This document shows, one piece after another, positions 11,897 through 19,400 of a stretch of DNA of 47,566 bases. The stretch's first letter is position 1; each line of letters starts with the position of its first letter. Source of the DNA: Desulfarculus sp. (GTDB lineage: Bacteria; Desulfobacterota; Desulfarculia; Desulfarculales; Desulfarculaceae); assembly GCA_016218705.1 (NCBI GenBank), contig JACRDC010000126.1, positions 1 through 47,566 on the forward strand, in the 5' to 3' direction. The notes beneath the pieces were generated by a model. The model saw only the letters and a list, made by a program, of their open reading frames with translations, was not told the origin of the DNA and did no database searches. Made by a program: the position numbers and the translations under genes.

Positions 11897-13609
11897 ATGG
11901 GGAACAACAAGAAAAATGCCGCAATTATAGCCGGTTTCGCCCTGACCGCCCTGGGCATCGTGGGCATGATTATTTGGGGGGTGAAGTCAGTCGCAACCTT
12001 TGCGGTGGCCACAGGTGTCATCACTTCTATCGGGGCGGCTTGGCCCATAATTTTCCCGGCCGCCAGCCGTAAGCAGGCAGAAGACATCAAGGTGGATACG
12101 ACCCAACTACTCGATGATACCTCCCAGATGAATGAGAGGCTGAAACTAATCGAAGGCCTGCTCAAACCCACCGAAGAAGAAGTAAAGTCAGAACTGGAAA
12201 AGGAGCTGTCGGCCGAGATGGGCCGCAAGCAAGAGGAAGCCTTACGGTTATTCCGAGAGGCTGACCAGGACATCGAACACGGGAGGTCACTCCAGGCCAT
12301 TCCCAAGTTGGAACAGGCCTTGACCATTGCTGATATTCCTTCCTTTCACATAACTCTTGGCAATGCTCTATTTTTTACCAGCAAGTATCAAGATGCCTTG
12401 TGGCATTACCAGAAGTCCCTTGATGGCTACCGCAAGGGTAAGGATCGTCGAGGAGAGGCCAGTGCGATCGGCAGCCTGGGCCTAGTCTATCGAAACCGGG
12501 GCGACCTGGCTCGGGCCGAGCGAAACTTTCAGCAGGCGCTGAAGGTTCATAGGGAAATAGCAGACCCCCAGGGAGAGGCCGCCGCACTGGGCGCCCTAGG
12601 CTTGGTATACCAGGCCCAGGGCGACTTGGCGCGGGCCGAGCAGCATCTTCAGCAGACCCTGGAGATTCAACGAGAACTAGGCTACCGCCGTGGACATGCC
12701 GCAACCTTGGGCAACTTGGGTCTGGTCTATAGGGAGCAGGGCGACCTGGCTCGGGCCGAGCAGCACTTTCGGCAGGCCCTGGAGACTCACCAGGAAATAG
12801 GCGACCGCCTGGGCCAGGCCAGACAACTTGGCAACCTGGGTTTAGTTTATAGGGAGCAGGGCGACCTGACGCGGGCCGAGCAGCACCTTCAGGAGCCCCT
12901 TGAGATTCAACGAGAGATAGGCGACCGTTTGGGGCAGGCGACACAACTGGGCAACCTGGGCCTTGTCTATATGGCCCAGGGCGACCTGGCTCGGGCCGAG
13001 CAGCATTATCAGCAGGCCTTGGAGACTCACCAGGAAATAGGCGACCGCCTGGGCCAGGCCAGACAATTGGGCAACCTGGGCATTGTCTTCGCTAAGCAAG
13101 ACGACCTGACGCAGGCCGAGCAGCATCTTCAGCAGGCCCTGGAGATTCAACGAGAGATAGGCGACCGCTTGGGACAGGCCAGACAACTGGGGAACCTGGG
13201 CCTAGTTTACCAAGCCCAGGGAGACTTGGCGCGGGCCGAGCAGCATCTTCAGCAGGCCCTGGAAATTCAACAAGAACTAGGCGATCGCTTGGGGCAGGCC
13301 AGACAACTTGGCAACCTGGGCCTTGTCTACATGGCCCAGGGCTACTTAGCGCGGGCCGAGCAGCACTATCAGCAGGCCCTGGATATTGACCAGGAAATAG
13401 GCGACCGACTGGGCCAGGCCACACAACTGGCCAACCTGGGCGCGGTCTACGCAGCACAAGGCTACCTGTCGAAGGCCTTAGAATGCTATGAGCAGTCCGC
13501 GTCCATGTTCCGCGATATCGGCGCGGCCCGCGAATTGGCCATCACCGAAGAAAAAATCGCCCGCCTCAGGCAGGCCATGGCCCGCCAACCCGCCCCTCCC
13601 GCCAAGTAA
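11897..13609 (+). CDS. membrane-anchored tetratricopeptide-repeat protein
   Basis: A 570-residue protein with two hydrophobic segments near the N-terminus (about residues 8-28 and 33-55), a charged helical stretch, then TPRs of the 40-residue kinesin-light-chain (TPR_12) type. Nine 40-residue units begin at nucleotide 12461 and repeat every 120 bp to about 13540; the consensus contains LGNLGLVYxxQGDLARAEQH. Units 3-8 are nearly identical in DNA. Such arrays are protein-protein scaffolds. Base composition is visibly lower in G+C than in the flanking genes, suggesting transfer or recent repeat expansion. The partner is unknown. Confidence 0.85.
   Translation: MGNNKKNAAIIAGFALTALGIVGMIIWGVKSVATFAVATGVITSIGAAWPIIFPAASRKQAEDIKVDTTQLLDDTSQMNERLKLIEGLLKPTEEEVKSELEKELSAEMGRKQEEALRLFREADQDIEHGRSLQAIPKLEQALTIADIPSFHITLGNALFFTSKYQDALWHYQKSLDGYRKGKDRRGEASAIGSLGLVYRNRGDLARAERNFQQALKVHREIADPQGEAAALGALGLVYQAQGDLARAEQHLQQTLEIQRELGYRRGHAATLGNLGLVYREQGDLARAEQHFRQALETHQEIGDRLGQARQLGNLGLVYREQGDLTRAEQHLQEPLEIQREIGDRLGQATQLGNLGLVYMAQGDLARAEQHYQQALETHQEIGDRLGQARQLGNLGIVFAKQDDLTQAEQHLQQALEIQREIGDRLGQARQLGNLGLVYQAQGDLARAEQHLQQALEIQQELGDRLGQARQLGNLGLVYMAQGYLARAEQHYQQALDIDQEIGDRLGQATQLANLGAVYAAQGYLSKALECYEQSASMFRDIGAARELAITEEKIARLRQAMARQPAPPAK
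12461..13540 (+). repeat. nine 120-bp in-frame tandem repeats
   Basis: The units start at 12461, 12581, 12701, 12821, 12941, 13061, 13181, 13301 and 13421. The central six are near-identical, the outer ones more diverged, which is the pattern of internal unit duplication. They encode the TPR array of the gene at 11897-13609, and copy number could vary by slippage or recombination. Confidence 0.9.
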
Positions 13610-13723: not shown

Positions 13724-14968
13724 ATGAGCCATCTACGCCAGTCGGACCCCCAGGTCGCCGAGTTGATCCAGCAGGAATCGCGCCGCCAGGCCTCGGTGCT
13801 GCGGCTCATCCCCAGCGAGAACTACGCCTCGCCGGCGGTGATGGAGGCCACGGGCAGCGTCCTGACCAACAAGTACTCGGAGGGCTATCCCTTCCGCCGT
13901 TATTACCAGGGTCAGGAGTTCATAGACCTGATCGAGGACATCGCGCTCAAGCGGGCTCGGGAGCTCTTTGGGGCCGAGCACGCCAACGTGCAGCCCTATT
14001 CGGGCTCTCCGGCCAACATGGCGGTATATCTGGGGTTGTTGAAGCCCCACGACCGGGTGCTGGGCATGGATCTGGCGGCGGGCGGGCATTTGACCCACGG
14101 GGCCAAGGTGAGCTTCTCGGGCAAGTTCTACGAGGTGCGCCAGTACGGGCTCAGCCGCTCCACCGGCCTGGTGGACTACGAGGCCGCCCGGGCCATGGCC
14201 AGGGAATTCCAGCCCAAGCTGATCTTCACCGGGGCGTCCTCCTATCCGCGCACCATAGATTTCAGCATCTTCCGGCAGATCGCCGACGAGGTGGGGGCCT
14301 ATCTGGTGGCCGACATCAGCCACATCTCGGGGCTGTGCATCTCCGGCGACCATCCCCATCCCCTGCCCCACGCCGACGTGGTGACCACCACCACCCACAA
14401 ACTCCTGCGCGGTCCCCGGGGGGGCATGATCCTGTGCCGGGGCGAGCTGGCGCCCAAGATTGACAAGGCGGTCTTCCCGGGCCTGCAGGGCGGCCCCCAC
14501 AACCACGTCACCGCGGCCATCGCCGTGGCCCTGGGCGAGGCGGCGCGTCCGGACTTCACGGAGTATTGCCACCAGGTGGTGAGGAACGCCCAGGCCCTGG
14601 CCCAGGGCCTCACGGACCAGGGCTGCCAGTTGGTCACCGGCGGCACCGACAATCATCTGGTGCTGATTGACGCCACGCCCCTGGGGCACACGGGCAAGTC
14701 CCTGGCCGTGGCCCTGGAGCGGGCGGGCATCGTGGCCAACGCCAACAAGATACCTTTTGACCCCCGCCCGGCCGAGGAGCCCAGCGGCGTGCGCCTGGGC
14801 ACCCCGGCGCTCACCACCCGGGGCATGCGGGAGGCCCAGATGGCCCAGGTGGCGGCGTTCATCGGCCAAGTGGCCCGGGATGCGGGCAACGCCACCGTCT
14901 TGGAGACGGTGCGGGGCCAGGTGGCCGAGTTGTGCGCGGGCTTCCCGGCCCCCGGGGTGGCCGTCTAG
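13724..14968 (+). CDS. glyA: serine hydroxymethyltransferase
   Basis: A 414-residue PLP enzyme that interconverts serine plus tetrahydrofolate with glycine plus methylene-tetrahydrofolate in the cytoplasm. Family blocks are intact: LRLIPSENYASPAVMEATGS, LTNKYSEGYP, VQPYSGSPANMAVYLGLL, the PLP lysine in TTTTHKLLRGPRGGMIL, and PGLQGGPHNH. Length is normal for the family. The start at 13724 follows AAAAAGGACAG and lies 36 bp after a strong promoter; an ATG at 13661 would fall inside the promoter. It is monocistronic as far as can be seen. The two small-RNA candidates lie directly downstream. Confidence 0.97.
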   Translation: MSHLRQSDPQVAELIQQESRRQASVLRLIPSENYASPAVMEATGSVLTNKYSEGYPFRRYYQGQEFIDLIEDIALKRARELFGAEHANVQPYSGSPANMAVYLGLLKPHDRVLGMDLAAGGHLTHGAKVSFSGKFYEVRQYGLSRSTGLVDYEAARAMAREFQPKLIFTGASSYPRTIDFSIFRQIADEVGAYLVADISHISGLCISGDHPHPLPHADVVTTTTHKLLRGPRGGMILCRGELAPKIDKAVFPGLQGGPHNHVTAAIAVALGEAARPDFTEYCHQVVRNAQALAQGLTDQGCQLVTGGTDNHLVLIDATPLGHTGKSLAVALERAGIVANANKIPFDPRPAEEPSGVRLGTPALTTRGMREAQMAQVAAFIGQVARDAGNATVLETVRGQVAELCAGFPAPGVAV

Positions 14969-15005: not shown

Positions 15006-15023
15006 GGTTCAGTTTTTTGAACC
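15006..15023. promoter_or_regulatory. inverted repeat downstream of glyA
   Basis: GGTTCA-N6-TGAACC, with a T run in the middle. It could be part of a weak terminator for glyA or a second activator site for the sigma-54 promoters further on. The sequence does not decide. Confidence 0.3.
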
Positions 15024-15083
15024 AAGTAATGATAAGGCAAATCAAGACGTTGATCTCTTGACCCCTCGCAGGCTCCGGCAAGA

Positions 15084-15103
15084 CGGTACAAAAATTTGTA
15101 CCG
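15084..15103. promoter_or_regulatory. candidate enhancer (UAS) for a sigma-54 activator
   Basis: A perfect dyad CGGTACAAA-AA-TTTGTACCG (9-bp arms, 2-bp centre). It lies about 110-130 bp upstream of the first -24/-12 promoter, the usual distance for an enhancer-binding protein. No regulator gene for it lies in the window. Confidence 0.6.
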
Positions 15104-15211
15104 CGGTCTCCCAAGTGGGGAAGTGGCCCCCGGGAGCGGCGCCCAGAATCTTCAAGCTAAAGTATTGATTATAAAGGGTATGTTGTGGCGGGCCGCTCGC
15201 GGCCTGGCTGG

Positions 15212-15227
15212 TGGCACCAAAGTTGCT
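15212..15227 (+). promoter_or_regulatory. sigma-54 promoter of small RNA 1
   Basis: TGGCAC-N5-TTGCT fits the -24/-12 consensus (GG at 15213-15214, GC at 15225-15226). The predicted start is G15238, which is the first base of the block conserved between the two RNA candidates. Confidence 0.8.
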
Positions 15228-15237
15228 TGAGCTAGGG

Positions 15238-15311
15238 GCACCAGCTTCTCAAAAAACCCTTTTCTCCTTTTCAGAGCGCGCCGGGTTCCCCAGACCCGGC
15301 GCGCTCTATTT
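15238..15311 (+). ncRNA. sigma-54-dependent small RNA candidate 1
   Basis: A transcript of about 74 nt is predicted from the promoter at 15212-15227. It begins GCACCAGCTTCTCAAAAAAC, continues as an unpaired pyrimidine tract (15258-15272, containing TTTTCTCCTTTT), and ends in a perfect 14-bp G+C-rich hairpin (15273-15286/15294-15307) followed by ATTT. It has no open reading frame with a ribosome-binding site. The TCTCCTTTT stretch is complementary to Shine-Dalgarno sequences, so pairing with ribosome-binding sites of target mRNAs is the likely mode. A homologous copy lies at 15456-15526. The weak T tract is the least convincing part. Confidence 0.75.
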
Positions 15312-15340
15312 GGGCGTGGGCAACGCAGGGCCACTTCAGG

Positions 15341-15355
15341 ATAACTTGCGGTTAT
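15341..15355. promoter_or_regulatory. small inverted repeat between the two small RNAs
   Basis: ATAAC-N5-GTTAT, centred about 80-90 bp upstream of the second sigma-54 promoter. It is a possible activator site for small RNA 2. It shares no sequence with the stronger dyad at 15084-15103, so the assignment is weak. Confidence 0.25.
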
Positions 15356-15429
15356 AGCTTGGGTAAATTGGCAGGGTCCATCCGGGGGGCGGCGGAGAGG
15401 TCCAGGATGCCGGGGCCGCCGGACAATTT

Positions 15430-15445
15430 TGGCACCCGCATTGCA
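15430..15445 (+). promoter_or_regulatory. sigma-54 promoter of small RNA 2
   Basis: TGGCAC-N5-TTGCA is a full match to the -24/-12 consensus. The predicted start, G15456, is the same base of the conserved RNA block as in copy 1. Confidence 0.82.
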
Positions 15446-15455
15446 AGAGTTACGG

Positions 15456-15526
15456 GCACCAGCTTCTCAAACCCCTTTCTCCTCTTCTGGAATGCGCCGG
15501 GCACCCAACCCGGCGTTTTCCTTTTT
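15456..15526 (+). ncRNA. sigma-54-dependent small RNA candidate 2
   Basis: A transcript of about 70 nt homologous to candidate 1. The first 16 bases are identical (GCACCAGCTTCTCAAA), then comes a pyrimidine tract containing CCCCTTTCTCCTCTTCT, then a hairpin with a 7-bp perfect core (15495-15501/15509-15515) that can extend outward, and a strong T tract TTTTCCTTTTT (15516-15526). It is therefore a convincing terminator-ended RNA. It ends about 130 bp before the convergent enoyl-CoA hydratase gene. The pair resembles, in organisation only, other multi-copy sigma-54-dependent regulatory RNAs such as the Vibrio Qrr set. Confidence 0.8.
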
Positions 15527-15658
15527 GGGGCCTCGGCCCCGCCCGCCCAAGCAAAACGGGCGGGGATGGACCCCGCCCGCCGCGGCGAAATACCGGCATG
15601 GCGATTTGGCGCCGGCCCCAGGACCGGGCGTGGGCGGCTACCTGGCCGGCCTGGGCGC

Positions 15659-19302: not shown

Positions 19303-19400
19303 GGAAGTGGAAAGGGCACTGGTGGCTCTCCCGGACTTCAAATCCGGTGTACCTTCTGAGTAAGGGGGTAGGTGGGTTCGATTCCCATGCACTTCCGCCA
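19303..19400 (+). tRNA. selC: tRNA-Sec (UCA anticodon)
   Basis: A 98-nt tRNA with encoded CCA. The acceptor arms are GGAAGTG/CACTTCC, and the anticodon arm CCGGACTTCAAATCCGG carries TCA and closely matches the anticodon arm of known bacterial tRNA-Sec. There is a long extra arm and a T arm GGTGGGTTCGATTCCCATGC. It reads UGA as selenocysteine after charging by SerRS and SelA. Its presence means the genome encodes selenoproteins, although none of the genes in this window shows an obvious in-frame UGA. Confidence 0.95.

Follow-up and report, generated by a model that had tools for sequence, protein, structure and literature searches.

A predicted sigma-54-dependent small RNA pair of Desulfarculus with relatives across the Desulfobacterota and a putative porin target

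The window analysed here (the whole 47,566-nt stretch of Desulfarculus sp. DNA, contig C101 of genome G000) carries behind glyA a locus that probably encodes two paralogous trans-acting small RNAs (sRNAs), for which expression has not been shown experimentally. The reading that fits best, and in which we place reasonable confidence, is of a module in which a histidine kinase and its sigma-54 activator control an sRNA that represses porin synthesis. Judged by sequence comparison, this sRNA belongs to a class of RNA that had no name before and has members across the phylum Desulfobacterota. A tandem pair of homologous sigma-54-driven sRNAs had been proposed in an earlier sequence-only reading of the window; the enhancers, activator, taxonomic breadth and target described below are additions to that observation.

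The sRNA genes, approximately 75 nt each, share a 5' block, a CU-rich tract and a terminator hairpin (Table 1). They lie in a 690-bp gap between the stop codon of glyA (14968) and a convergent enoyl-CoA hydratase gene (15659), and no supported gene was found in this gap, which had been described as gene-free. The two proposed promoters are the sole matches to TGGCAYN5TTGCW in the window, where 0.10 would be expected, and no shuffled sequence contained two. If the C of GC is taken as -12, both copies have their predicted +1 at the same G of GCACCAGCTTCTCAAA, with a spacer of 10 nt from promoter to 5' block in each, in agreement with the claim that both starts fall on one base of the conserved block. 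Each RNA is predicted to fold into an open 5' part of about 35 nt followed by a strong terminator hairpin, with hairpin folding far above that of shuffled sequences (z -6.7 for copy 1 and -3.8 for copy 2). The hairpin and T tract that had been assigned to each copy were confirmed in part: both hairpins stand, as does the T tract of copy 2 (TTTTT), and the T run of copy 1 is only weak (CTATTTGGG), so termination there may be leaky. Elsewhere in the window, a 570-aa TPR-repeat protein with very similar repeats is encoded upstream of glyA (11897-13609, plus strand) and has no homologue at other sRNA loci. A selenocysteine tRNA gene is also present (19303-19400, plus strand; Rfam tRNA-Sec, 70.4 bits; ARAGORN anticodon tca), and the organism therefore probably makes selenoproteins.

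Table 1. Features of the sRNA locus and its upstream neighbour, in window coordinates.
Feature	Position	Strand	Evidence or remark
glyA (serine hydroxymethyltransferase)	13724..14968	+	Pfam SHMT, E 2e-154; kept upstream of the sRNA within the family
Enhancer UASa, GGTTCAGTTTTTTGAACC	15006..15023	+	2 mismatches to GGTWCAAANNTTTGWACC; 0.00 expected
IHF-like site between the two enhancers, AATCAAGACGTTG	15040..15052	+	Consensus match; function inferred
Enhancer UASb, GGTACAAAAATTTGTACC	15085..15102	+	0 mismatches to GGTWCAAANNTTTGWACC; near-exclusive to the sRNA locus in family genomes
IHF-like site between enhancer and promoter 1, AATCAATACTTTA	15158..15170	-	Consensus match; binding inferred
Sigma-54 promoter of sRNA copy 1, TGGCACCAAAGTTGCT	15212..15227	+	Kept in homologues
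sRNA copy 1 (predicted transcript)	15238..15314	+	Covariance model 77.4 bits; fold z -6.66
5' block of copy 1, GCACCAGCTTCTCAAA	15238..15253	+	Most conserved part of alignment; predicted pairing with porin codons 1-5 (duplexes)
CU core of copy 1, CCCTTTTCTCCTTTTC	15257..15272	+	Predicted pairing with porin Shine-Dalgarno region; TTTYCTCC kept phylum-wide
Terminator hairpin of copy 1, weak T run	15273..15307	+	Covariation
Sigma-54 promoter of sRNA copy 2, TGGCACCCGCATTGCA	15430..15445	+	TGGCAYN5TTGCW match
sRNA copy 2 (predicted transcript)	15456..15528	+	Covariance model 85.2 bits; fold z -3.83
Core of copy 2, CCCCTTTCTCCTCTTC	15472-15487	+	Differs from copy 1 core
Terminator hairpin and T run of copy 2	15489..15526	+	Covariation; fold against shuffles

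Homologues were sought in 20 genomes of the family by DNA search, with an exact scan for an 18-base block, and with a covariance model derived from 14 copies. The covariance model, a search that the sequence-only reading had itself suggested, recovered the RNA in 17 of these genomes, and G011 was added through its enhancer (18/20), with a promoter; the two genomes without the sRNA (G001 and G013) are both about 71% complete. A sigma-54 promoter precedes the model start by 26-28 bp at nearly all family loci. Promoter, 5' block, CU tract and hairpin are kept together in 17 other family genomes, supporting the proposal of homologous sigma-54 sRNAs; loci retaining the hairpins without the promoters would have refuted it, and the opposite was seen. 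The hairpin shows covariation, with 96% of alignment cells paired, compared with 34-50% when the alignment was slid, and both sides have changed in seven of thirteen pairs. The sRNA is present as a tandem pair in G000, G003, G004 and G005. In the window and at 15 other family loci the sRNA lies directly behind glyA, about 140-270 bp downstream, and the opposite flanking gene varies. The second copy of G002 and the modules of G006, G011 and every other family do not neighbour glyA. The second G002 copy (L105, G002:C116:4013) is a paralogue that does not adjoin the first. It has a separate enhancer pair and a core that differs (CCTCTTCTTCTCCTAATAG), and another porin (AGAAGAGG in L358) may be its special target.

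Beyond the family, a sigma-54 promoter followed after 18-47 bases by TTTYCTCC was identified in 68 of 395 genomes of the phylum (reversed control, 4 sites), with a terminator hairpin behind most of the matches checked; only the UUUYCUCC core is conserved at this breadth. Covariance model R1 gave mostly weak terminator-like matches outside the family, those in families f22, f94 and f12 proving real on promoter inspection. The exact 18-base block was found in nine records outside Desulfarculus, most of them from other phyla, and these look like chance matches. The f12 loci (L057, L061 and L063) encode a longer variant with an extra 5' hairpin (GTATATGAAC...GTTCATATAC), a C-rich loop (CATCCCCCCCTT) and then a UUUUCUCC core. 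In family f54, a tandem duplication of the sRNA unit lies at G325:C49:9306 and 9758, 452 bp apart; such duplication seems recurrent, as in Cystobacter pxr. At the gathering threshold Rfam matched nothing in the window except tRNA-Sec (hit at 19303-19396), and hence no sRNA family, while a search of 13 loci at E values up to 0.5 returned just unrelated weak matches. The statement that no known sigma-54 RNA has this sequence thus stands for Rfam. Two published systems are close, namely Pxr and the ncRNA downstream of DVU0653 in Desulfovibrio vulgaris.

The enhancer palindrome GGTWCAAANNTTTGWACC was recognised by side-by-side reading of upstream regions. Two copies lie approximately 78 bp apart upstream of the sRNA promoters of the window. 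At up to one mismatch the palindrome occurs in 17 of 20 family genomes (reversed control, 1/20), usually as one site per genome and upstream of the sRNA. In a matrix scan of 41 loci, most showed a distance of 76-79 bp between the enhancers and one of 102-127 bp, typically 113-127 bp, from UASb to the promoter. Spacing departs from this in f43 (64-67 bp, three loci) and in f10 and f94 (90 bp); a convincing second site is missing from a few loci (f55, f85). No position among 228,493 in the flanks reached a matrix score of 12 or above, a specificity high enough for finding carriers. Exact matches in G100, G135 and G161 have no sigma-54 promoter near them, one being inside a coding frame, and were taken as chance palindromes. 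The IHF consensus has two matches in the window, both at the sRNA locus, where 0.12 would be expected. No separate enhancer precedes copy 2, which probably relies on those upstream of copy 1.

A candidate activator is indicated by gene order in other families. In G097 the enhancer, promoter and CU-core RNA are located immediately behind the gene of an NtrC-family response regulator (bEBP), and about 20 genomes from 11 families have enhancers, promoter and RNA directly downstream of the gene for this bEBP. In other families the module thus stands behind a histidine kinase/NtrC-type gene pair; the regulator gene is preceded by that of the kinase and, in several families, also by one for phosphoglucose isomerase. 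One clear orthologue was identified in all 12 carriers searched, with 50-60% identity outside the query genome and well above the next paralogues, and a search of the phylum found orthologues in many families. The orthologue in G000 (C121:72341-73690) is located behind a phosphoglucose isomerase gene. The protein possesses receiver, sigma-54 and Fis-type HTH domains and a GAFTGA motif; with the -24/-12 promoter and upstream enhancers, the general criteria for a sigma-54-dependent sRNA are met. Its assignment as regulator of the sRNA rests on adjacency elsewhere, the shared enhancer and co-occurrence, from which it is inferred that a dedicated sensor/activator pair very probably switches the sRNA on. 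At L170 (G000:C121), two minus-strand genes separate the histidine kinase and regulator genes, which are adjacent in relatives. Identity of the bEBP with PilR, suggested by PilM/PilN neighbours in G307 and G218, was rejected: the kinase is not PilS-like and the neighbours vary.

In families f42, f76 and f95, upstream repeats such as TATGGCGTGATTATGGCG and TGGCGYGATTATGGCG replace the palindromic enhancer. The closest regulator in these families aligns up to about residue 392 only, which indicates that its C-terminal, DNA-binding end differs. Joint replacement of regulator end and enhancer would fit these data, the link between the two being inferred. The RNAs of these families (L275-L288) have a short 5' hairpin (AAGAGAAACCAACUCUU) and a conserved terminator loop (AGCCCC), often with two copies per genome.

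For target prediction, the family genomes were scanned for complements of the CU core near ATG, together with homologues; the search was not a genome-wide scan, and porin pairing was analysed for the window family only. AAAGGAGAAA before ATG gave about 90 sites in the 20 genomes, and the reversed control gave 6. Translation of 39 sites showed an ORF of at least 40 aa beginning at 34 of them, and a single protein family recurs (12 sites in 12 genomes), the rest being singletons. Ten sites had been picked for their extended-looking sequence; among 30 taken without such a choice, nine belong to the recurring family. Predicted structure (pLDDT 83) identifies this family as an outer-membrane porin, the best PDB match being DcaP (6eus, E 3.7e-19), followed by OprP, PorB and OmpF; the Pfam porin assignment is below its cut-off. 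Porin copies number one to seven per genome and are present in 20/20 family genomes.

Contiguous complementarity between the best porin start and the genome's own sRNA amounts to 12-17 nt in 17 of 18 genomes, whereas among 202 other Shine-Dalgarno starts one reaches 12 nt and none 13. Mean duplex energies are -35.8 kcal/mol for porin starts, -26.2 for non-porin starts and -20.2 when the RNAs are shuffled, with some non-porin starts also low (null minimum -50.8). The predicted pairing is bipartite, joining the CU core with the Shine-Dalgarno region and CAGCUUCU of the 5' block with AUGAAGAAGCUG. It tracks lineage: RNAs of genus g4 have UUUCC and its porins GGAAAGG, RNAs of genus g1 have UUUUC and its porins GAAAAGG, and the divergent RNA of G011 (UUUCCUUUCUUAAAA, without CUCC) is accompanied by a porin with matching TTTTAAGAAAGGAAA. 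At 38 of 45 porin starts the own sRNA outscores those of other genera, genus g1 contributing two RNA copies to the "own" score. As the porins were found by scanning for core-like sites, the genomes concerned are selected; those without a pattern match at a porin show 12 (G000), 12 (G003), 13 (G010), 15 (G011) and 9 (G016) contiguous nt. The genomes are related and were treated as independent, making p-values optimistic, and strong purine-rich Shine-Dalgarno sequences and MKKL starts, both common, account for a generic share of the complementarity. On this in silico evidence we think it likely that the sRNA pairs with the ribosome-binding site and first codons of porin mRNAs and so would repress porin synthesis. 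Copy 2, having a different core, may serve other porins or mRNAs. Hfq (PF17209) was detected neither in G000 nor in 12 of 13 other genomes by a search that was positive in 5 of 14 control genomes, and an Hfq-assisted mechanism was dropped, as none was detected in the carriers examined.

The phylum-wide retention of the UUUYCUCC core alone, and the abundance of AAAGGAGAAA before ATG, would also suit a general anti-Shine-Dalgarno regulator which mimics the 3' tail of 16S rRNA and dampens many mRNAs with strong Shine-Dalgarno sequences, porin being one among many. We regard this as unlikely: the long complementarity is found at porins and not at the 202 other starts, it takes in porin codons 1-5, and it follows changes in the RNA, including that of G011 where CUCC is absent. 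The same CU-rich single-stranded tract might instead act as a decoy titrating a pyrimidine-binding protein, as CrcZ titrates Crc/Hfq, and both the sigma-54 and two-component control known for CrcZ and the failure to find Hfq can be cited for it. Each RNA has a single core, however, without repeated motifs, the 5' block is conserved as much as the CU tract, and the complementarity coevolves with one mRNA family, which leaves a decoy function very improbable. That the elements are merely 3'-UTR or attenuation signals of glyA, with no independent RNA gene, is hardly credible; their constant place behind glyA at 16 loci is what speaks for it, but every locus has its own promoter and enhancers, and the module stands apart from glyA in three family genomes and all other families.

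The enterobacterial, Hfq-dependent sRNAs of the MicF, MicC and MicA type pair antisense over the ribosome-binding site of porin mRNA. The predicted pairing over porin ribosome-binding sites is alike (in silico only), whereas the sequence is unrelated, no Hfq was found and control is by sigma-54 and a two-component system. GlmY/GlmZ, Qrr and CrcZ are sigma-54 regulatory RNAs under two-component systems; they gave no Rfam match to the sRNA of the window and differ in targets or mechanism. The Cuckoo/CCUCCUCCC sRNAs of alphaproteobacteria carry an anti-Shine-Dalgarno-like pyrimidine motif and differ from the present sRNA in having it in hairpin loops, in their promoters and in gene context.

Of the two published systems found to be close, Pxr of Myxococcus xanthus is an sRNA driven from a sigma-54 promoter behind pxrR by PxrK/PxrR, without Hfq; it blocks fruiting-body development, its direct targets are unknown, tandem paralogues exist in Cystobacter and it has been reported from myxobacteria only (PMC5568312, PMC5684412). 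A histidine kinase with an NtrC-like regulator, a sigma-54 sRNA, tandem copies and no Hfq found are common to both systems. The pxr gene adjoins its regulator, whereas the sRNA of the window family sits behind glyA with the regulator on another contig, adjacency being met in about 11 other families. From about position 13 to the 3' end, as pieced together from published primers and probe, Pxr lacks UUUYCUCC and CCAGCUU. It does possess a C-rich stem-loop, and the f12 variant, with its C-rich loop, resembles Pxr stem-loop 1; this variant might link Pxr and the Desulfobacterota sRNA. DVU0653 of D. vulgaris is a two-component sigma-54 regulator with a GAFTGA motif, and the target listed for it is an ncRNA encoded directly behind its gene; orthologues have been reported from only a few Desulfovibrio (PMC3333781, PMC4641369). 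The same combination of regulator type, GAFTGA motif and ncRNA just downstream is seen here in other families, and this ncRNA may or may not be related to the Desulfobacterota sRNA. In its predicted workings the sRNA is like Pxr upstream and like MicF downstream, and the tests that could be made place it in neither family.

In the preferred kinase-to-porin module, the histidine kinase would phosphorylate its NtrC-family partner (on C121 in G000), as inferred from domain knowledge. The phosphorylated partner would then bind GGTWCAAANNTTTGWACC at both enhancers (15006 and 15085) and, probably helped by IHF-assisted looping, activate sigma-54 polymerase at 15212 and, probably, 15430. The sRNA would pair antiparallel with mRNAs of the porin family, the CU core over the Shine-Dalgarno sequence and the 5' block over the coding start. 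Inferred from this complementarity, pairing would block ribosome entry without Hfq, and sensing of the signal by the kinase would lower porin synthesis. Promoter, enhancers, RNA conservation, regulator co-occurrence and complementarity are the well-supported parts of this scheme as far as comparative evidence reaches; there are no expression or binding data, and phosphorylation, binding, transcription, repression and the signal rest on inference. A wider interpretation remains tentative and somewhat doubtful: a phylum-wide, Hfq-independent circuit of envelope control, with an ancient kinase/bEBP pair, essentially a single target gene, an sRNA coevolving with porin mRNAs, a jump from the regulator operon to glyA, and regulator end and enhancer swapped together in f42, f76 and f95.

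Post-transcriptional control in the Desulfobacterota is nearly unexplored, and no Hfq is detectable in the carriers examined. A conserved sRNA for which an activator can be named, the enhancer is near-exclusive and a target is predicted makes up a circuit that is complete and open to testing in sulfate reducers and related bacteria. How sRNAs act without Hfq, and whether Pxr of the myxobacteria has a wider or older counterpart, are questions on which this circuit bears.
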